From: Nitrososphaerales archaeon
Lineage (GTDB): Archaea > Thermoproteota > Nitrososphaeria > Nitrososphaerales > Gagatemarchaeaceae
Length of the DNA: 64,000 nucleotides
NCBI GenBank assembly: GCA_030038395.1
Contig: JASHOZ010000025.1
Location: 1-64,000 of the forward strand
Direction: 5' to 3'
Position 1 is the stretch's first letter, and each line of letters opens with the position of its first letter. Position numbers and translations under genes: made by a program. Below are positions 13,057-22,130 of this stretch, piece by piece. The notes beneath the pieces were generated by a model. It ran no database searches. It was not told where the DNA came from and saw only the letters and a program-made list of their open reading frames with translations.

Positions 13057-13620
13057 ATGGCGCGGCGCTACTTCGGACTCACCGGTACCCCCGGGACTGG
13101 GAAGAAGACGCTCGCACCGAGGATAGCGGAGAAGCTAGGACTGCCGTGCGTGAGTCTCACGGCTGAAGCCTGTGAGGCGAGAGTCGCCTCGGCCGAGGGG
13201 GACGAAGTGGATACGGAGGCTCTTGCGGAGCGGATTGTCGGAAGGATCAGTAGGCCCGCCCTTGTGTACGGGCACCTTCTCCCCTACGTGATCAGGCGGA
13301 GCGACTTGGGCTTTTTGGTGGTGCTGAGGTGCGAGCCCCGAATTTTGAAGCGCAGGCTGGAGTCCAGAGGGTACGCGCGAGGGAAGGTCCGCGAGAACGT
13401 GGAAGCTGAGCTCATAGGCATCCTCTGCGCGGACTCCGTGAGGGCATACGGCGCCGGCCGGGTTGCAGAGTTCGACACGACTTCCGCGTCCTTTGACTCG
13501 GCGGACTCGACCGCCTCCACGATCGCTTCGCAGATGCGGACCGGGCGGGCGCGAGGAGAGGCTTTCGACTGGCTGCCATCGTACGCGACTGCGCGTCGGC
13601 TAAGGGAGCTACTGTCGTGA
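13057..13620 (+). CDS. AK6/Fap7-type adenylate kinase-like NTPase
   Basis: This 187-residue P-loop protein of the AK6/Fap7 group starts with YFGLTGTPGTGKKTLAPRIA and has a VVLRCEP strand followed by a basic LID-like stretch (RRLESRGYARGKVRENVEAE). Homologues assist small-subunit ribosome maturation and show weak adenylate kinase or ATPase activity. The Walker A is unusual: GTPGTGKKT has Lys where Ser or Thr normally follows the P-loop lysine. It sits 14 bases after msrA, probably in one operon. The C-terminal end (DWLPSYATARR) may contact the ribosomal partner. Confidence 0.8.
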   Translation: MARRYFGLTGTPGTGKKTLAPRIAEKLGLPCVSLTAEACEARVASAEGDEVDTEALAERIVGRISRPALVYGHLLPYVIRRSDLGFLVVLRCEPRILKRRLESRGYARGKVRENVEAELIGILCADSVRAYGAGRVAEFDTTSASFDSADSTASTIASQMRTGRARGEAFDWLPSYATARRLRELLS

Positions 13621-14276: not shown

Positions 14277-16028
14277 TTACGTCGAATCCTTGGGAGCCGG
14301 GGCGGCCCCCTCCTGTACCGAGAGCGGCGCCGCTCGCACTTCTATCAGGATCGGGCTCTGGATCCGGGGGACGCCGACGACCGCCTCGCCGACCCCGAGT
14401 TTGGTGAGGTAGTCCTTTTGACGGGCGGACAGGCCCACTGAGTCGCCTATTACAGAGACGTCGTCGGGCCAGTCTATGCGGTGGATGATCTTCGTACCGG
14501 AGTTCTTCACGACCTCCGAAGCGACCTGGCTTGGAAACTGGGCGACGAACATCATCCCCTCACCGAACTTCCTGAGCTCCGAAATCATCCTCTCCCCTAC
14601 AGAGGGCGGTTCCTCGACCCTTCTCGCGGGTGCAACGTTGCGCGCCTCCTCCACGACAGTGAGATGCTCTAGCCCCGACCTCCTCGCGACCCTCTCCTCA
14701 TACACCAGCTTGAGCATCACGTCCGCGAAGATTGCTCTTGTCTGCACGTCCTTCAGGTTCCCCAGTTCGATGCATATGGTCTCTCCTAGCAGGTCGTCAA
14801 TCGAGACGCGCCCAGCCCCTCCGAGGGCCCTGCCCGCCACACCTTGGGTCAAGGGAACGAGCCTCCTGAGCAGCGCGACTTTCGTCTCGTTGTCGTAGGC
14901 CGAGCGGAGCGGGTAAGACTCGATGGTCTTCACCAGGCCAGACAGACTCGGAACCTCCTCGTCCGAGCACTCGCTTATCCGTTTCTGGAGCGCGTTACGG
15001 AACATGTAAGCCTGCGGATGTGTGAAGTGATAGATGTCGGAGAAGATGTCAGAGACGATTGCGACCTGCTCGACCGCGTCAATCCTGTTGCCAGCTTCGA
15101 TTGGGTTGACAGAAAAGCCCTCCTCCCCCGGCGAGCAGACCTTCCCGCCTGCATTCGACACAGTCTGCGCGTACTCGTTGTGCCAGTCGAGCACCATGAC
15201 GGGCAGCCCTGCCTCGGAAGCCTGCTTGACTATGGTCCCCCCGGTTGTCGACTTTCCGCTCCCTGTCATCCCGAGGATGATGGCGTGCCGCCTCAGGTCT
15301 TCGAGTTGCAGTCTGAAGTCGTGGAACTCCCCGCCGGCCGACTTCACCGAGCCGAGCAGTATCCCAACTCTCCCGGACTCGGCGGCGTTTGGGACATAGA
15401 ACTCTGGTACGTTTCCGGGCGCGCCCACAAGCGGCGTCCTGCTCTCGAAGGAGCAGACCGCCCCTGCGGTCGCCGATGGCCCGCTCTGCCTGAGGTCCAG
15501 CCTCCCGGGGAACAGGAGTGTCCGTAGGAAGCCTGTCAGCTCTCCTCTCTCAAGCCTCGAAATCTCCGCGTTGGGGATGGCCACGCCAAGCGTTGCCGTC
15601 AGAATGCTCGTCCTTTGCTCCAGAGCTCTTTGCAGCTCGTCAGTCCCGTTCTCCTTTCCATCCACCCAAGTCCCAACGACCAGGTCGAACTCGAACATCA
15701 GCGGCTCCGACCCTTCTTGTTCCTTGCCGCTCATGACCACGGTGTAGACGAATGGGACGGACGCTCTGTGCAGCCCGTCGAAGAGCCCTCGAATCCGCTG
15801 CTGTTGTAGGGTCGTTCTGAGAGCCGCGCCGTAGTCTATCTCTATGTCCTGGTGGGTGTCGGGGACGCTAACTCTCACCAGGGCCATCAGCCTTCGCCGC
15901 CCCCCCTCGGGCAGTGACAGGCACCTGCCGTCCAAGACTCTAGGTTCGTCGAGCCCTATCGTCTTCTGCGGTCTGATCCTCCAAGCGAGGTCGGAGACTA
16001 TCCGCCGTCCGGAGAGCAAGCCAGTCAC
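14277..16028 (-). CDS. HerA/FtsK-superfamily ATPase (DUF87) of the pilus locus
   Basis: This 583-residue P-loop ATPase has Walker A GMTGSGKST (about residue 255), Walker B VVEEARN (about 454) and the HerA-type C-terminal segment with EGMMFVAQFPSQVA and NSGTKIIHRI. Such hexameric ATPases pump DNA or, in the VirB4/CedB branch, power DNA or protein transfer through membranes. The N-terminal 200 residues resemble the beta-barrel part of HerA-like proteins. The GTG at 16028 overlaps the stop of the pilin gene (GTGA), so it belongs to the pilus operon. I infer a role in DNA transport or in assembly of this apparatus; the sequence alone does not decide. Confidence 0.85.
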   Translation of the reverse strand: MTGLLSGRRIVSDLAWRIRPQKTIGLDEPRVLDGRCLSLPEGGRRRLMALVRVSVPDTHQDIEIDYGAALRTTLQQQRIRGLFDGLHRASVPFVYTVVMSGKEQEGSEPLMFEFDLVVGTWVDGKENGTDELQRALEQRTSILTATLGVAIPNAEISRLERGELTGFLRTLLFPGRLDLRQSGPSATAGAVCSFESRTPLVGAPGNVPEFYVPNAAESGRVGILLGSVKSAGGEFHDFRLQLEDLRRHAIILGMTGSGKSTTGGTIVKQASEAGLPVMVLDWHNEYAQTVSNAGGKVCSPGEEGFSVNPIEAGNRIDAVEQVAIVSDIFSDIYHFTHPQAYMFRNALQKRISECSDEEVPSLSGLVKTIESYPLRSAYDNETKVALLRRLVPLTQGVAGRALGGAGRVSIDDLLGETICIELGNLKDVQTRAIFADVMLKLVYEERVARRSGLEHLTVVEEARNVAPARRVEEPPSVGERMISELRKFGEGMMFVAQFPSQVASEVVKNSGTKIIHRIDWPDDVSVIGDSVGLSARQKDYLTKLGVGEAVVGVPRIQSPILIEVRAAPLSVQEGAAPAPKDST

Positions 16029-16231
16029 CACTGGAAGGTGGAGCTGAAGATGTTGGACAGGGCCGAGGTTATCGAGCTCCAAATGCTCGCTGTGTAGTTC
16101 GCCGCTTCCTTGAGGATAGACTCGATCCCTCCCACGAGGAGGGAGAGGATCACCAGGGCGACCGACAGGAGTAGCGCCTCCTCCACGAGCTGAACGCCTC
16201 TTCTTCTCGGTCTAAAGATTCGGGCCATCAC
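16025..16231 (-). CDS. Flp-like type IV pilin
   Basis: This 68-residue protein has a short basic leader (FRPRRRG) followed directly by VQLVEEALLLSVALVILSLLV. Cleavage after the Gly would give a mature pilin of about 57 residues with Glu at +5 and +6, matching the type IV pilin rule and the size of bacterial Flp pilins. The rest is a short amphipathic, Ser/Ile-rich tail. It lies between the TadC-like gene and the HerA-like gene and overlaps the latter by four bases. No prepilin peptidase gene is present in the window. Confidence 0.75.
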   Translation of the reverse strand: MMARIFRPRRRGVQLVEEALLLSVALVILSLLVGGIESILKEAANYTASIWSSITSALSNIFSSTFQW

Positions 16232-16248
16232 CCAATAAGCTGGTGTCT

Positions 16249-16893
16249 CTATTTAATCGCCAACGTGCCGAGCGAAGGCATTGCCACCAAGGGCGCTACG
16301 AGGGCGGCCACGACCGCGAACGTAACGATTGTTGCCGCCACGTTCAGCACCAAGTTCCTCCCGGAGAGATACAGCCCAAGCATCGCAGACGAAATGCATG
16401 CCATCGCGAACGCGGCGTACATCACGCCACCTGGTGCCACGGATGCCGGGGCGGAAGTGAAGCTGACAAGGTTCACGAGCGGCCCTAGCGTGGCGATCAT
16501 GGCGGACACGGCTCCCAGCACGATCGACGCTATTATCCCTCTGAACCTCATCACCCTGTCCTCAAGCTTCCTGTTCTCCCTGGCCTTCAGCCACTTCTCG
16601 AGGGTCAAGGAGAGCCCCTCGCCAGAGTCTCCGATGGCGGCCGTGCTGCTGGTGCGCGCCTTCGATATGAGCGATGCAAGCATAGCCACTTCCTCCCCTC
16701 TCTCCTCCACCGGCGCGACAGCGACCGAGAGCGACGACCCGAGGAGGAGTCTCCGTGCCACCTCTTTGCCAGACGGCCCCTCCCCACGCATCTCCACCAC
16801 AAGCGCTTGAGCCGCACCGCCCCTCTCATGCACCCTTCGGAGCACTCTGCGCAGCGCTAACAGCAGCGAGATGTCAGAGGGCGACTCCCTCAC
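16249..16893 (-). CDS. TadC/T2SSF-like pilus platform protein, C-terminal half
   Basis: This 214-residue protein starts with a cytoplasmic helical domain (residues 1-115, T2SSF-like) and then has three to four membrane helices (about 120-140, 155-180, 185-210). Together with the adjacent 220-residue protein it matches the two halves of FlaJ/TadB-TadC platform proteins, encoded separately as in Tad systems. Its GTG start overlaps the stop of that gene by four bases. It would anchor the TadA/FlaI motor to the growing pilus. Confidence 0.75.
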   Translation of the reverse strand: MRESPSDISLLLALRRVLRRVHERGGAAQALVVEMRGEGPSGKEVARRLLLGSSLSVAVAPVEERGEEVAMLASLISKARTSSTAAIGDSGEGLSLTLEKWLKARENRKLEDRVMRFRGIIASIVLGAVSAMIATLGPLVNLVSFTSAPASVAPGGVMYAAFAMACISSAMLGLYLSGRNLVLNVAATIVTFAVVAALVAPLVAMPSLGTLAIK

Positions 16894-17552
16894 GCCCTGT
16901 CCGCGGAGCAGAAGTTGAACGCGATCTCGAGGACTACCACGTCGAGGGCGACGAGTTCTGCAAGGTCATCGGGAGTCGTGACGCGTGAGATGACAGAGTA
17001 CATGACAAGAAGGATGGGGGTGAAGATGCAAACGGTCATGAATATGGGGAGCTTGGTTTCGTGCGACAGCTGTGCGTAGCTCGTGATGCCTTCGCTCTCT
17101 TCCCCACGCTCGTCGAGGGTCTGAGGGGACTGGTCGGCGACGCCGCAGACCGCGTTTGCCGCGGAGTAGGAGGCTAGATGCGCAGAGGCGGTTCGCACGG
17201 ACTCGCGCACCGGGACACCGAGCAGCACGCTTCTGCCCGCCGCCTTCAGCGCGGCCGCGATGCCGGGCTCATCCGAGCGAAGCGACAGGAGCGTCTTCGC
17301 CCTCGACCCGCTCGCTGAGAGGCACGTTGCGGCGGCCGCCGAGATCGTCACGGCTTCTCGCGACTCGCTGCAAGATGAAGCCTGCCCCACTCGTCGCGGC
17401 GCCGATACGCACGCGTAGAAGACGAGACCGCTGACTATGAGTTGGACATCCTCCGTAGAGCCGCCTAGCACCCCGCCCACGAGTCCTCTGAATACAAGGG
17501 CGGCGCCCGCGGCGGCTGCGAGAGAGAGACAGACTAGCTTCTTGAGGTCCAC
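16890..17552 (-). CDS. TadB-like pilus platform protein, N-terminal half
   Basis: This 220-residue protein has two N-terminal hydrophobic helices (about 5-28 and 37-52), a cytoplasmic helical domain (about 70-165) and two C-terminal helices (about 165-190 and 195-215). This is the TadB/T2SSF arrangement and complements the following TadC-like gene, with which it overlaps by four bases. The motor ATPase gene lies 42 bases upstream on the same strand. Sequence divergence is high, so the call rests on topology and gene order as much as on motifs. Confidence 0.7.
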   Translation of the reverse strand: MDLKKLVCLSLAAAAGAALVFRGLVGGVLGGSTEDVQLIVSGLVFYACVSAPRRVGQASSCSESREAVTISAAAATCLSASGSRAKTLLSLRSDEPGIAAALKAAGRSVLLGVPVRESVRTASAHLASYSAANAVCGVADQSPQTLDERGEESEGITSYAQLSHETKLPIFMTVCIFTPILLVMYSVISRVTTPDDLAELVALDVVVLEIAFNFCSADRA

Positions 17553-17594
17553 GTTGCCGAGCTCGTGGCGGCTGAAGTCGATTGCACTGTCACC

Positions 17595-19025
17595 TCACTC
17601 GCCAAGCCTCGCTTCTGCACTGGCTATCCGGCTGGCAAGTTCGAGCTCGTTGACGCCTATTGGTGGACGCAGCCACCCTACGCCGCCTACCCTCTGAAGA
17701 CGAAACTCCCTGTCACGCACGAAGACATCCCGAAGCCTGGGTTCGCCACTCTCGGACATGACCTCGCAAATGCGAGCTACGAACCGTCCGGACCGCAGTC
17801 TGTCCGGTCGCACCATCTGCACTAGGAGGCCGAGGTCGAGGAGGCACTGCCTGGGTATCCCATGAATCTCCACCCACCTCCTGAGGGCCTGCTCGACCGT
17901 CGACGCGTGGAATGTCTGTATCCCCCTCACCCCTGCGGAGAGGGCGTGAAAGAACGCCTTGCTGTGGCTCTCTGACTGGAGCTCGCTCAGTATGACGATG
18001 TCCGGCGAGCGGTGGAGGGCCTTCACGATCTCTGACTCTTTGGTGCGTTCTGAGGGCGTGCCCCGGTCAAACGGGTCGACTTTGAGCTTCACCTGGTGGT
18101 AGCCTCTGCCTATCAGGTCTCCTGTCTCGACCGCGTCCTCGATGTAGATTCGCCTGAGCTTTGGCTGGACCTGTTCATCGATCGCGTTCAGGAGCGTGGT
18201 CTTGCCTGTCCCGGTTTCGCCGACGATGGTGACGTTTCCGCCCGACTCGACCCAGCCGATCAGCGTCGACGCGGCTTCGACTGAAATCACGCCAAGGGCA
18301 GCCAGGTCGCGAATCGAAAGCGATGTCACGCTCAGTCTTCTCACATCGAGCGAGAACCTGTTCACCGAAATTGGATCCAAGTCAAGAGAGATCCGCAGCC
18401 TTGCGCCAGCTATCTCGAGGTCGTTCTTCAGGGAAGGGGTGTCGTAGTCGATGGTGTACCCGTTGAAAGTGTCCATGTGGGTCTCTAGCGACTGCCTCTC
18501 GCGCCCCACGAGCAGCATAGTAGTCTCGCATCTCCCGGCGTCGACGTGGTCCAGGTACAACGGGGAAGAGTCGGAGTCAACGAAGAACTCTGTCACCTTC
18601 GCATCTTTCGCTATTGCGAGTATTCTGGACAGCCCTATCGCCTCGTACGCTACGAGCTCGGCGAGCTCTCTGACTTGGCAACCGGGGAGTAACTGTGCGA
18701 CCCATTCAGCGGCCATCTGTGTAAGCACGCTCACGAGGCGGTCGAATGTCAAGGGTTGAACTGACACCGGGTCCAACCTCTCTGACACCTCGGCGGTAGC
18801 CCGTCTCAGACTGATCAGGGCCTCGTTCGGGAGGGTGCAGGAAACGTTGTAGAAGTTCGCCTCGCTTCGCGTAGCGAGTTGATAGGCAAAAGGGTACGAC
18901 TCGTATGAGGTGAATGCTCCCTCAAGGGGCTTTCCTAGCAACTCGGAGAGGAGCGGCCCTGGGACTGACGCGACCTTCTTCCTGGACGCGAGCCTCAGCA
19001 GCGTGCGCTCTACTCGGCTCACCAA
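17595..19025 (-). CDS. TadA/FlaI-type secretion/pilus motor ATPase
   Basis: This 476-residue type II/IV secretion ATPase has Walker A GETGTGKTT (about 268), an Asp-box-like YIEDAVE, a Walker B region DIVILSELQS and a His-box-like GVRGIQTFHAST. The N-terminal 200 residues form the variable archaeal domain. It powers pilus assembly together with the TadB/TadC-like proteins encoded downstream. The TTG at 19025 (or the GTG at the next codon) is placed about 32 bases after a minus-strand TATA-like CTTTTATC, so the transcript is probably leaderless. A divergent pilin-like operon starts on the other side of the same intergenic region. Confidence 0.9.
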   Translation of the reverse strand: MVSRVERTLLRLASRKKVASVPGPLLSELLGKPLEGAFTSYESYPFAYQLATRSEANFYNVSCTLPNEALISLRRATAEVSERLDPVSVQPLTFDRLVSVLTQMAAEWVAQLLPGCQVRELAELVAYEAIGLSRILAIAKDAKVTEFFVDSDSSPLYLDHVDAGRCETTMLLVGRERQSLETHMDTFNGYTIDYDTPSLKNDLEIAGARLRISLDLDPISVNRFSLDVRRLSVTSLSIRDLAALGVISVEAASTLIGWVESGGNVTIVGETGTGKTTLLNAIDEQVQPKLRRIYIEDAVETGDLIGRGYHQVKLKVDPFDRGTPSERTKESEIVKALHRSPDIVILSELQSESHSKAFFHALSAGVRGIQTFHASTVEQALRRWVEIHGIPRQCLLDLGLLVQMVRPDRLRSGRFVARICEVMSESGEPRLRDVFVRDREFRLQRVGGVGWLRPPIGVNELELASRIASAEARLGE

Positions 19026-19052
19026 CTGTGGGTCGCTTGTTACTCCTTACGC

Positions 19053-19082
19053 CGATAAAAGGCGCAAGGTTGGACGTTAAGT
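19053..19082. promoter_or_regulatory. Divergent promoters of the pilus locus
   Basis: Two back-to-back TATA-like boxes lie here. On the minus strand CTTTTATC (about 19053-19061) sits 32 bases before the motor ATPase start. On the plus strand CGTTAAGTA (about 19071-19080) sits about 29 bases before the TTG at 19105. The arrangement would let both arms of the locus be controlled together. Confidence 0.5.
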
Positions 19083-19104
19083 ACGCCGCCGCAGTCAATG
19101 ATGA

Positions 19105-19461
19105 TTGGTCGAGCTCGTCGAGTATACCCTGGTAGTCCTCTCCTCCACCCTGCTGATCACAGGGTCAGTGCTCGTCTACGACGGCTACGCGAGTTCAGAG
19201 GCGACCCTCATCGAGAGTGAAGCCTTCTCAACTCTTGTGGCTGGCGCGAAGGAGGCAACTTGGAATGGAACGGACACCCTGACAGTGGTGGTCCCTTCCG
19301 CCGTCGTCGCCTGTTCGGACGAGACTCTCTCCCTGAATGCTTCTGGTTCAGTTGATGCAAGCAGCATCGGCGTCCCGTGCGCATTCAGCTATGAGACTTC
19401 GGCGGGCGTCCACACCTTCCAGTTCGACTACAACCTGACGCTGACTCTCCTGGTGACTTAG
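19105..19461 (+). CDS. Pilin-like membrane protein with Glu-Tyr motif but no leader
   Basis: The TTG-started 118-residue protein begins VELVEYTLVVLSSTLLITGS: a Glu-Tyr pair followed by a hydrophobic helix, as in mature Flp/TadE-type pilins. No basic prepilin leader is present, because in-frame stops lie immediately upstream. The rest is an extracellular-type beta-rich domain with two Cys (residues near 71 and 92) and NxS/T sites. It opens the divergent arm of the pilus locus and is followed directly, in frame, by another membrane protein. A minor pilin or TadE-like subunit is the best guess. Confidence 0.6.
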   Translation: MVELVEYTLVVLSSTLLITGSVLVYDGYASSEATLIESEAFSTLVAGAKEATWNGTDTLTVVVPSAVVACSDETLSLNASGSVDASSIGVPCAFSYETSAGVHTFQFDYNLTLTLLVT

Positions 19462-19839
19462 CTGCCCGCGTCAGCCACGTCCTCGGCGATTTCTTGGGGG
19501 GCTTACCTAGCCGCGGCAGCATCTCTCGTTCTGCTTCTTTCGCCTCCGCTTTCTGCGGCCTATTCTGGCTCTGAGCTTGGCGCGGCCTCGCAGGTGCTGG
19601 CAGGGATTGCGGACATCATGGGGGAGATGCGCCCCGGCCTTACTCTCAGCTTCTCCTTCGGTTCATCCGGGGCCCAGGGGTATGTGACGGTGAACGGCAG
19701 CTTGCTGACGTACACGACGCCGTATGGCGTCGTCGCGGCCTTCTCCTCGATGCGCTGCTCCCCGATCGAACTTCTCCCGGGGGTCAGGTACGCTGCCCAG
19801 ATGGAAGACGGATTCGTGGTGATCCTTGTCCTTGGCTGA
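19462..19839 (+). CDS. Pilus-locus membrane protein with probable CTG start
   Basis: The reading frame after the preceding TAG is open for 126 codons and encodes a hydrophobic N-terminal helix (WGAYLAAAASLVLLL, about residues 12-28) and then a beta-rich domain. No ATG, GTG or TTG lies upstream of that helix; the first standard codon is GTG at 19594, which would discard it. A CTG immediately follows the stop and has GGTGA five bases before it, the same spacing as at the oxidase gene. I therefore call the start at CTG 19462. The role is probably a secreted or membrane-anchored pilus component. Confidence 0.5.
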   Translation: MPASATSSAISWGAYLAAAASLVLLLSPPLSAAYSGSELGAASQVLAGIADIMGEMRPGLTLSFSFGSSGAQGYVTVNGSLLTYTTPYGVVAAFSSMRCSPIELLPGVRYAAQMEDGFVVILVLG

Positions 19840-19936
19840 GGTAGAAACCTTCGTCGACGTCGCGCTGATGTACGCGGCGATCATAACACTCGCACTGCTC
19901 GCGCTCGCAACTCTCGCTGCGAGGGCTGTGCGGTGA
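19832..19936 (+). CDS. 34-residue single-helix membrane protein of the pilus locus
   Basis: This TTG-started mini-ORF overlaps the end of the previous gene by eight bases and the start of the next by four (GTGA). It encodes VETFVDVALMYAAIITLALLALATLAARAVR, essentially one membrane helix with a short acidic N-terminus and a basic end. The tight overlaps on both sides argue that it is translated. It is too short for normal annotation. The role is presumably as a small accessory or pilin-like subunit. Confidence 0.55.
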   Translation: MAEVETFVDVALMYAAIITLALLALATLAARAVR

Positions 19937-20295
19937 AGTTCCTAGACGTCGCAGTCGCGGTGATCATAGGACTGTCCGCGTTCGTCTCGCTCGACGCCTT
20001 CAGCCCCACGGCGAACGTCGCCGCTTCGTACGCACTCGAGCGACAGGCATCCGCGCGCGACAGCCTGAGCGCACTGATTGCCTCTCCTGGCGTAGCTTGG
20101 CTGCAGAGCGCGTCCATGGCCCAGACTTGTGCGCTGCTCGCGTCGCTCTCAAACAACTCTGTCGTGTTCTCGGCGACTCAGGGAGCTGTCGCCTGCCGCG
20201 GTGCCCCGGCTGGAGCTGTCGCATCAGCGAACTTGACTCTCTCCTTCCCGTCAAGGACGCTGGTGCTTGAGGCTTGGGCGATCGCAAAGCCATAG
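19933..20295 (+). CDS. Pseudopilin-like membrane protein
   Basis: This 120-residue protein opens with MKFLDVAVAVIIGLSAFVSLDAF, a hydrophobic helix with an acidic residue at position 5, as in mature pilins and minor pseudopilins. No prepilin leader precedes it. The remainder is Ala/Ser-rich with two Cys that could pair. The GTG start overlaps the preceding mini-ORF, and the gene overlaps the next by 22 bases. It is most likely a minor subunit of the pilus-like structure. Confidence 0.55.
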   Translation: MKFLDVAVAVIIGLSAFVSLDAFSPTANVAASYALERQASARDSLSALIASPGVAWLQSASMAQTCALLASLSNNSVVFSATQGAVACRGAPAGAVASANLTLSFPSRTLVLEAWAIAKP

Positions 20296-21089
20296 GTGCG
20301 AGCCTCGCGGCGGCCGCGATATTCTCCGTCATCCTGATCGCCAACGCCGCACTCCTCTCGGGGTCCGAGGAGCACGAGGTGCTCGCCGCTCAAGGGGACG
20401 CTGAGAGCTACTTGGCGGCGAACTCATCGGCACTCCAGGCGACGATCGCACTGGCGCTCCTTGACGGGCTCCAAGAGTCGCTCTCGGCGCGTACGCTACC
20501 GTGCGTGAACTCGTCGGCATACGTCGAGGCCAGCGTCGACGGGGTGCCCTTCAACCAGAGCATGAGTCAAGTCAGCGGCAGCGGGGAGCTCGAGCCTGGG
20601 ATGAACCTGACCGAAGCGGACGACTTCACGGCTCTTTATCCCTTCAATGGATGGCGGGGCGGAGACCTGAACGTCCTGTCAGACGAAGTGGTCACGGGGG
20701 GCGTCGAGTACTTCGGAGTGAGTCTGAATGTGAGTCAACAGTACAGACTCAGCCTCCCGGTCAGGCTGGGCAGGATGTCAGAGATTTGCGTTGACGCCCT
20801 GGCGGCTGCGGAGGCTCCTCTAGTTCAGTTGAGCGCTTCCGGATGCAACGCCTCCGCCGTGGGACAGGCGGTCGACGCGGTTGCGTCTGAAATGAGGGCG
20901 AGCGCCGAGAGCTACGGCCTTGAGGCCTCTCTCGGTTACACGCTCGAGCCTTTGTCTCGGTGTAGCGTCGTTCTGCTCTCCGAGGTAAACGAGACGGGCA
21001 TTCAAGGTCCGCTAGGGACGTTCAGCGTTGCCTTGGAGCAGGAAGCAACGCTCGCGCTTCCAACGGGGAACGCAAGTGGGCTTGCGTGA
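20274..21089 (+). CDS. Pilus-locus surface protein, pilin-like N-terminus
   Basis: This 271-residue protein has a short basic N-terminus (GDRKAIG), one hydrophobic helix (about residues 8-30) and a large extracellular domain with many NxS/T sequons and several Cys. The leader RKAIG followed by a hydrophobic helix resembles a class III/prepilin-type signal. It is the last and largest gene of the divergent arm and could be a tip or adhesin subunit. Its last 68 bases overlap the convergent TFB gene on the other strand. The TTG at 20274 is the only start keeping the basic leader. Confidence 0.6.
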   Translation: MGDRKAIGASLAAAAIFSVILIANAALLSGSEEHEVLAAQGDAESYLAANSSALQATIALALLDGLQESLSARTLPCVNSSAYVEASVDGVPFNQSMSQVSGSGELEPGMNLTEADDFTALYPFNGWRGGDLNVLSDEVVTGGVEYFGVSLNVSQQYRLSLPVRLGRMSEICVDALAAAEAPLVQLSASGCNASAVGQAVDAVASEMRASAESYGLEASLGYTLEPLSRCSVVLLSEVNETGIQGPLGTFSVALEQEATLALPTGNASGLA

Positions 21090-21999
21090 ATATCTCCTTG
21101 TACTGTTCTCTGACCGTGTACTCCGCTGTGTCTCCGCACTCTGCTACCTGCCTTTGAGTGAGCCTCCTTCGTCTCCCTTCACGATCTGCGAGGAGCAGCT
21201 CGGCGCCGTATACCGCGGTCGCGGCCAGAGCGCATGGGCTCCTCCCTACCTTCGCGCTCCACGCAAGCGACCCCAGGATCTCTACTGCCGTCGTTCTGAG
21301 CGAGTTGAAGTAAGAAACGGCCTGAACTCCTTCCTTCTTCAGTTCTGCCGTCAGCCTCCCGTCTGACCCCAGCTTGACGATGACGCGCCCCACGTAGTCC
21401 TCAGGGCCTCTCGCCTCGGTCTTGATTGGCGAGTCCAGAGAAAGCTGGATCAACGACGAAACCTTGACTCGCCTACCTAGCGCCTGGAACGAGCCCACCA
21501 CGTCCTTGATCGAGACAGCGGTGACCCCTTCGGCCTTGCATGCTGCAACGAGCGCGTAGGCCGATACGGTTGCGAGGGTGATGCGCCTGTCCCCCCTCTC
21601 GGAGGCTAAGACCTTCTTTGCGATCACTATGGCATGTGCCATCACGACCGTCGGCAGCGACAGCTTCTCGCTGACCCTCTCAATCATCTTCGCGGTGGCG
21701 TACACTGCGCTCTCCTCCCTTCCCGCGTAGTCAGAGACGAGCTTGAGGTACTGGTACGAAGACCCCTGCTGTGCTAGTCCTCTGGAACCCCTCTCCTTCC
21801 TCGTGCCTTCGACTGTTCCCATATACCCGCCGAGGGCTTGCCCCGTGAAGTCTATGGCCACCAGACGAGAGGAGGGCCCGATCTCTAGGACCTGCTTTTC
21901 TCTGACTATCCCGCAGCGCTGGCAGACTAGTTCGTCTTCCATGTCCAGCAGCCTCCCTGAACAGTCATCACACACGCATGTCGGTTCATCAGATTGCAT
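21022..21999 (-). CDS. tfb: Transcription initiation factor B (TFB) paralogue
   Basis: This 325-residue protein has an N-terminal zinc ribbon (CDDC and CQRC spaced about 15 residues apart), a linker resembling the B-finger region, and two cyclin-like repeats (about 95-190 and 200-300). TFB recruits RNA polymerase to TATA/TBP complexes. The ATG at 21999 puts the ribbon near the N-terminus; the upstream extension is unlikely. The cyclin repeats look more divergent than a housekeeping TFB, so this may be one of several paralogues. Its 3' end overlaps the convergent pilus gene. Confidence 0.88.
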   Translation of the reverse strand: MQSDEPTCVCDDCSGRLLDMEDELVCQRCGIVREKQVLEIGPSSRLVAIDFTGQALGGYMGTVEGTRKERGSRGLAQQGSSYQYLKLVSDYAGREESAVYATAKMIERVSEKLSLPTVVMAHAIVIAKKVLASERGDRRITLATVSAYALVAACKAEGVTAVSIKDVVGSFQALGRRVKVSSLIQLSLDSPIKTEARGPEDYVGRVIVKLGSDGRLTAELKKEGVQAVSYFNSLRTTAVEILGSLAWSAKVGRSPCALAATAVYGAELLLADREGRRRRLTQRQVAECGDTAEYTVREQYKEIFTQAHLRSPLEARALLPAPRQR

Positions 22000-22130
22000 G
22001 CTCCTCGTACCGATGGCGGCGGATAACTCGACGGAGGGGCACTTCCGTCCCTGCACGCGACTGAAGCGTCCTCGCTACCTTGCCTGGAGGTCACGGAGGG
22101 AGGGTGGGTTCACGGAATGTGATGGCGGGC

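Follow-up and report, generated by a model that had tools for sequence, protein, structure and literature searches.

A Tad/Epd-like type IV pilus locus with a CedD-related ATPase and a TFB paralog at a conserved chromosomal site of Thermoproteota

The 64,000-nucleotide stretch analyzed here, referred to as the window, belongs to a 1.49-Mb metagenome-assembled genome (MAG) of an uncultured soil archaeon of the Gagatemarchaeaceae type. The relatives that carry names are Thaumarchaeota/Nitrososphaerota MAGs, including Candidatus Gagatemarchaeum stordalenia, that is, members of terrestrial group I.1c, a family described in PMC10640624. The window contains a block of genes (Table 1) that encodes on its minus strand, from 5' to 3', a pilus motor, a TadB-like and a TadC-like platform protein, a Flp-like pilin, and a HerA-like ATPase. 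Five genes, termed D1 to D5, run divergently to this chain, and a convergent gene for a TFB paralog ends the block. An earlier note on this DNA had recognized, all in one chain, a motor, a platform split into TadB and TadC, a Flp-like pilin, and a HerA-class ATPase, and each of these genes was recovered by Pfam searches, profile comparisons, and alignments. The five divergent membrane proteins of that note are also present, each with one predicted transmembrane (TM) segment. The description of the chain as a series of stop-start overlaps was correct for TadB/TadC and pilin/HerA, whereas the genes at the remaining junctions are 17 and 42 bp apart. The note had overlooked the TFB gene as well as the conserved chromosomal site and the wide distribution of the block. 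Judged by its predicted proteins, the block is a complete type IV pilus (T4P) core that resembles Tad/Epd pili.

Table 1. Genes of the pilus block and its flanks in the window
Feature	Coordinates	Strand	Evidence and remarks
HerA/VirB4-class hexameric ATPase, CedD-like, 583 aa	14277..16028	-	DUF87 53 bits, HerA_C 33 bits (Pfam); GTG start overlaps pilin stop
Major Flp-like pilin, 68 aa	16025..16231	-	Class III-type leader RRRG|VQLVEEALLL; mature part ~53 aa
TadC-like platform protein, 214 aa, 3 TM	16249..16893	-	Profile-profile pairing
TadB-like platform protein, 220 aa, 3 TM	16890..17552	-	Profile-profile pairing
Pilus assembly motor ATPase, TadA/FlaI class, 476 aa	17595..19025	-	T2SSE 58 bits (Pfam)
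D1, leaderless pilin-like protein (M)VELVEYTLVV, 118 aa	19105..19461	+	Aligned start codon, 23 genomes
D2, small one-TM membrane protein	about 19462..19839	+	Family conservation; start codon uncertain
D3, 34-aa one-helix peptide (M)AEVETFVDVALMYAAI	19832..19936	+	Family conservation
D4, pilin-like protein, 120 aa	19933..20295	+	Family comparison
D5, 271 aa; ~70-residue N-terminal helix, then beta-rich domain	20274..21089	+	AlphaFold2 (AF2) model, pLDDT 88
TFB paralog: zinc ribbon and weak TFIIB repeat	21022..22056	-	PF00382 26 bits
Nucleoside monophosphate (NMP)/adenylate kinase-like gene, HerA side	13057..13620	+	AAA_18 55 bits; same place in most loci

To identify the HerA-like protein of the window, we compared it with all NCBIfam models. 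The best of these was CedD (NF053655; equivalog cut-off, 600 bits) with 188 bits, while the HerA models gave 60 and 55 bits. All locus HerAs tested behaved similarly, with their best scores to the curated CedD family (188, 222, and 248 bits), 55 to 71 bits to HerA, and at most 35 bits to CedB. In a tree of 45 sequences, the HerAs linked to Mre11/Rad50 (HerA-NurA) were split (100/100) from the pilus-linked HerAs, thermosome-adjacent proteins, and two divergent outliers. Clustering with HerA-NurA repair ATPases, which the earlier note had named as a possible refutation, was thus not seen, and this identity was rejected on the basis of the tree split and of the 60 bits to the NCBIfam HerA model, which has a cut-off of 970 bits. 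The Walker A motif GMTGSGKST and the motif TVVEEARN of the window protein are kept in the family; the Walker A motif of HerA-NurA has an A-x-TG form. The closest relative by sequence in the Protein Data Bank (PDB) is HerA (4d2i). The structural comparison called for in the earlier note, made by Foldseek with an AF2 model (pLDDT 80), returned HerA 4d2i (E = 4e-19) and VirB4 4ag5, the latter being the best match by TM-score (0.73 on the target). At the level of sequence, the nearest characterized relative of the locus HerA is CedD. In relatives of Sulfolobus, CedD (SiRe_1715) is essential for DNA import, and its deletion abolishes import (PMC11868833).

Of the pilus part of the block, the pilin, the platform proteins, and D1 to D5 had no Pfam match. 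The motor has an intact, conserved Walker A motif (GETGTGKTTLLNALDE). The TadB-like profile paired with the first platform gene of other archaeal T4P (E = 3e-11 for the distant-locus profile and 3.7e-7 for the window family), and the TadC-like profile paired with the second (E = 7e-8 and 2.7e-6, respectively). These pairings required multi-protein profiles on both sides; no match appeared when single sequences of TadB/TadC were compared as profiles with one FlaJ. The leader of the pilin, R(R/K)(G/A)|(A/V)QL(I/V)EEALLLSVAL, aligned together with an invariant E in 12 relatives, as far as a Thermoprotei MAG. The leaderless pilin-like subunits of the earlier note therefore do not include the major pilin, which has a class III leader, but D1 is such a protein, because in all 23 genomes compared its start codon aligns immediately before the conserved motif xE(L/I)xEY. 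D4 is without a leader in the window and has a KG-type leader in distant relatives (e.g., MKMKGNIPLIDAIAALIIV in L162; L, G, and f numbers are our handles for loci, genomes, and families). The model of D5 had no fold match in the PDB. A search of the genome for an A24 prepilin peptidase gave a single match of 25.9 bits, below the cut-off of 26.5. There was no TadZ/FlaH-type second ATPase among the locus genes, the rest of the genome not having been searched for it, and no secretin was seen in the locus.

The conserved N-termini of D2 and D3 lack ATG, GTG, or TTG in several genomes, where the first codon of the alignment is GCG, TCG, or CTG. Such cases comprise both genes of the window as well as L073, L074, L077, L081, L089, L094, and L099. 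Translation of these proteins may therefore be initiated by coupling, at a site farther upstream within the overlap, or from an unusual codon.

Linkage of HerA to pilus genes, the absence of which in relatives would have spoken against the earlier note, was observed in the family and across the phylum. Among the 37 genomes of the family-level count, 22 encode both ATPases, 13 encode neither, and two (G014 and G035) encode the motor only, on contigs that stop before the HerA position. This co-occurrence corresponds to a Fisher p value of 3e-8, uncorrected for relatedness. The identity of orthologs in the family is 50 to 70% for HerA and 51 to 67% for the motor, which is always upstream, with the platform and pilin genes in between. 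About 30 genomes with this level of HerA identity show the block in synteny, and its conservation is hence beyond chance. For the phylum-level count, we searched 398 genomes with profiles of HerA (A3) and of the motor (A2); 58 of them had a locus-type motor (at least 214 bits). In 37 of these 58 genomes (a count made from two search tables), HerA lies no more than about 5 kb away, on the same strand of the same contig, and in another four the locus was partial or split by contig ends. Three genomes had a HerA relative on another contig, which in G375 and G418 (L188/L189) lies beside a tRNA endonuclease-like gene. Stand-alone HerAs of the same clade, also beside a tRNA endonuclease-like gene, were seen in f43, f70, and f76 (L177, L188, and L189).

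In several relatives, the HerA gene itself is disrupted. A large integrated element interrupts it at L289/L290, L094-L097, L091, and L127. The element that splits the gene in G022 is of ~92 kb (C3:467.7-559.2 kb) and encodes DNA polymerase B and a TraG/HerA-like ATPase. The break is at identical codons (SDIFS|DIYHF) in G021, G022, and G027, and a tyrosine-recombinase-like open reading frame (ORF) sits at the break in G021 and G022. As read from these genomes, a mobile element integrates recurrently into the predicted DNA-translocase gene. In G023 (L092/L093), the HerA gene is split across ~78 kb of one contig, with the break close to Walker A instead of at the DIFS site. HerA is present as two ORFs, a TM-bearing N-terminal part and an ATPase part, in the Thermoprotei MAG G285 (L160:10235-12209), through either gene fission or a frameshift.

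The block occupies a conserved site. In deep lineages, the gene order is Lsm - RpoG/Rpb8 - TFB - divergent one-helix proteins - motor - TadB - TadC - pilin - HerA - NMP kinase - thermosome, and the presence of Lsm, RpoG, and thermosome near distant loci was confirmed by Pfam. The NMP kinase-like gene is probably a syntenic neighbor and not a component. This neighborhood holds unrelated housekeeping genes (Lsm, RpoG, thermosome, histone, S17e, and NMP kinase), so that adjacency alone is no proof of shared function, and the HerA-like protein could serve in ordinary DNA repair or segregation, its co-transcription with the pilus genes reflecting nothing but a frozen neighborhood. We regard this as quite improbable, given that the HerA gene overlaps the pilin gene and is kept or lost jointly with the motor in the family, that the protein falls outside the HerA-NurA clade, and that the host genome has a separate Rad50-linked HerA (L010).

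The same site was also found in crenarchaeal genomes. In L195 and L196 (f35), the order is CedD - thermosome - short zinc-ribbon TFB. The thermosome-adjacent protein of L195 scored 686 bits with the CedD model, above its cut-off, and from this match and the gene order we infer that these loci belong to Sulfolobaceae. An identity of this protein as CedB was rejected on the basis of the NCBIfam CedD model and of the CedD locus tags given in PMC11868833. CedD (SiRe_1715) and TFB3 (SiRe_1717; PMC10470591) are one gene apart, which matches the order in L195/L196. Other crenarchaeal genomes (L198, L201, and L207) have Lsm - RpoG - HerA/CedD - (kinase) - thermosome, and the pilus genes are gone. In f26 (L180-L185), the order is thermosome - membrane protein - motor - short TFB - RpoG - Lsm. 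This set matches the description by Makarova et al. (PMC4858521) of subclade 4D of Thermoproteales, which consists of an ATPase, a small membrane protein, and a TFIIB paralog, and we accordingly assign f26 to Thermoproteaceae carrying the 4D set. The authors found this subclade odd because of the lack of pilins and the presence of a TFIIB paralog. It now looks like a reduced remnant, since it has a single membrane protein and neither pilins nor HerA, while window-type loci possess all of these parts. The 4D ATPases fall inside the clade of locus motors in the motor tree, whereas 20 of 21 other archaeal T4P motors are outside (100/100); the exception, L276, is inside.

A TFB gene lies beside the locus in nearly all cases, and the TFBs of pilus loci form one clade (86/93). 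Locus TFBs, TFB3, and 4D TFBs are all without the GPEWRAF B-reader motif of initiating TFBs. The simplest account of these genomic patterns would be one ancestral locus that was differentially eroded. The data suggest that CedD and the 4D ATPase, and with less certainty TFB3, are remnants of an ancestral TFB-regulated pilus/DNA-translocase locus, the most probable role of which would be the uptake or exchange of DNA. We tentatively propose, as a scenario with somewhat less than even chances, that early Thermoproteota possessed one chromosomal DNA-exchange machine that united a type IV pilus and a HerA/CedD translocase with a TFB-type switch, and that TFB3, CedD, and the 4D pair are eroded pieces of this machine. 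Archaeal DNA import would then have begun as a type IV pilus system that was later joined to parts resembling type IV secretion systems (T4SS), namely, CedA and CedA1.

As for the window locus, we modestly favor the view that it combines a Tad/Epd-like type IV pilus with a dedicated inward DNA translocase and a transcription factor of its own. In such a machine, the TadA motor would polymerize the mature class III pilin on the TadB/TadC platform, the divergent one-helix proteins would form a minor-pilin or tip complex, and the pilus would make contact or capture DNA. The HerA-class hexamer, located at the cytoplasmic side of the membrane and anchored there by N-terminal helices in several relatives, would pull the DNA into the cell. 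The TFB paralog may turn the block on under stress, a role proposed by analogy with TFB3, which in Sulfolobales activates pili and DNA import once DNA has been damaged. The gene content and the evolution of the locus are well supported, and it is the DNA substrate, the direction of import, the membrane conduit, and the control by TFB that we infer. The earlier note had suggested a DNA uptake or exchange machine akin to Ced/Ted; the kinship is borne out by CedD as the nearest relative and by the site shared with Sulfolobaceae, and DNA transport would follow from that kinship. A bacterial-type competence system was considered as the identity of the locus and was not adopted. A conjugation module borne by a mobile genetic element was dropped because the block is at a single conserved chromosomal site and no relaxase was seen.

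Several observations weigh against a DNA translocase of common origin with CedD. In the locus, we found neither competence genes nor a nuclease, nor a channel resembling CedA (which was not searched for genome-wide), and TadB and TadC are small as regards a membrane conduit. The N-terminal TM hairpin present in several distant locus HerAs is absent from the window protein, which has no TM helix, and the N-terminal domains of locus HerA and CedD match weakly (E = 6e-4, 30% probability). TFB3 groups on the same side as the locus TFBs only weakly (59/35), and so do the 4D TFBs. Furthermore, 14 of the 58 locus-motor genomes had no HerA at threshold, even in a relaxed search, so that the pilus is not strictly dependent on HerA; the two ATPases, whose constant co-occurrence the earlier note had posed as a question, thus go together in the family but not throughout the phylum. 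Families without HerA at the locus position are f41, f49, f63, and f65. In f61, this position (L174:6409-7868, minus strand) is occupied by ORFs of 356 and 130 aa without a Walker A motif that contain a HerA-like stretch (RSAYENEYRYLIAKKLEEL), possibly a degenerate HerA.

That HerA is dispensable in some lineages, as retraction motors are, would also agree with a pilus that has two motors, in which the HerA-class ATPase serves, for example, in retraction or pilin release and moves no DNA. PilT-family retraction ATPases are not encoded by Archaea (PMC4858521), which leaves room for such a second motor, and the HerA gene is co-operonic with the pilus genes and overlaps that of the pilin. We nevertheless consider a two-motor pilus unlikely. 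The nearest characterized relative of the ATPase is a DNA-import protein (PMC11868833), the catalytic features of HerA/VirB4 are intact, and CedD was kept in Crenarchaeota after the pilus genes had vanished from the site. In addition, a DNA helicase was added to the operon in two families. This gene, of the XPD/DinG type (DEAD_2 and Helicase_C_2), directly follows HerA in f44 and f51 (L164:10812-12602, L165:34-1845, and L175:11518-13308) and may represent a further link of the locus to DNA.

Archaeal T4P of known role are mostly adhesive. The locus might accordingly encode an adhesion or protein-secretion pilus, with HerA exporting or unfolding a protein substrate or acting as a regulator, and the lack of known homologs for most of the minor proteins is compatible with this possibility. 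It appears quite improbable to us as well, as the locus contains no conserved substrate gene and HerA/VirB4 relatives of known function work on DNA or in conjugation machines.

Taken together, the recurrence of the block across the whole phylum suggests an old DNA-exchange machine whose leftovers are known from Sulfolobus. The parts of the locus are known; as far as tested, their combination is new, as is the link of CedD, TFB3, and 4D to a pilus that extends across the phylum. The claim of the earlier note that no system with exactly this set has been described agrees with the literature searched, although the motor belongs with the described subclade 4D (PMC4858521). In that literature, no T4P locus that includes both a CedD-class ATPase and a TFB is described, although papers beyond that search may have one, and the passages of the CedD paper (PMC11868833) that were consulted do not mention a linkage to a pilus locus. 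The locus provides a testable origin for CedD and TFB3, two orphan actors of archaeal DNA exchange. It also accounts for the pair of T4P ATPase and TFB in Pyrobaculum-type genomes, once suspected of a role in transcription (PMC4858521). On our proposal, many uncultured Thermoproteota would take up or exchange DNA, among them the non-ammonia-oxidizing soil Thaumarchaeota, for which we know of no such machine. If it is true, a single operon long ago brought together a type IV pilus and a HerA/VirB4-class translocase, two machines that normally belong to separate systems.

Of the known systems, the Ced system of Sulfolobales is related to the locus through CedD, the nearest curated family, which forms a common clade with the locus HerAs apart from HerA-NurA, shares the chromosomal neighborhood with thermosome and a TFB paralog, and may have an N-terminal TM hairpin in common with several of them. 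However, the locus HerAs reach only 188 to 248 bits with the CedD model, and their N-terminal domain is barely alignable. CedD stands alone in Sulfolobales, with Ups pili and the CedA channel, whereas the window ATPase shares an operon with a pilus of its own. TFB3 is likewise a zinc-ribbon TFB paralog without the B-reader motif near the thermosome/CedD site, but the locus TFBs are of full length (about 290 to 340 aa) and the sequence grouping is weak. Subclade 4D has a motor of the same clade (100/100), an adjacent TFB, and the same thermosome/RpoG/Lsm site; it differs from window-type loci in having one membrane protein, no pilins, and no HerA. The two platform genes, the TadA-class motor, and the short Flp-like pilin with its class III leader are shared with Tad/Epd pili, from which the window locus is distinguished by its HerA-class ATPase and TFB paralog, by several leaderless minor subunits, and by the fact that no TadZ/FlaH-type ATPase or secretin was seen there. 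Finally, the Ted system of Thermoproteales (PMC9905601) also ties a HerA/VirB4-class ATPase to a pilin and DNA transfer, but does so with VirB2-like pilins and a VirB6-like channel of the T4SS lineage and not with a type IV pilus.

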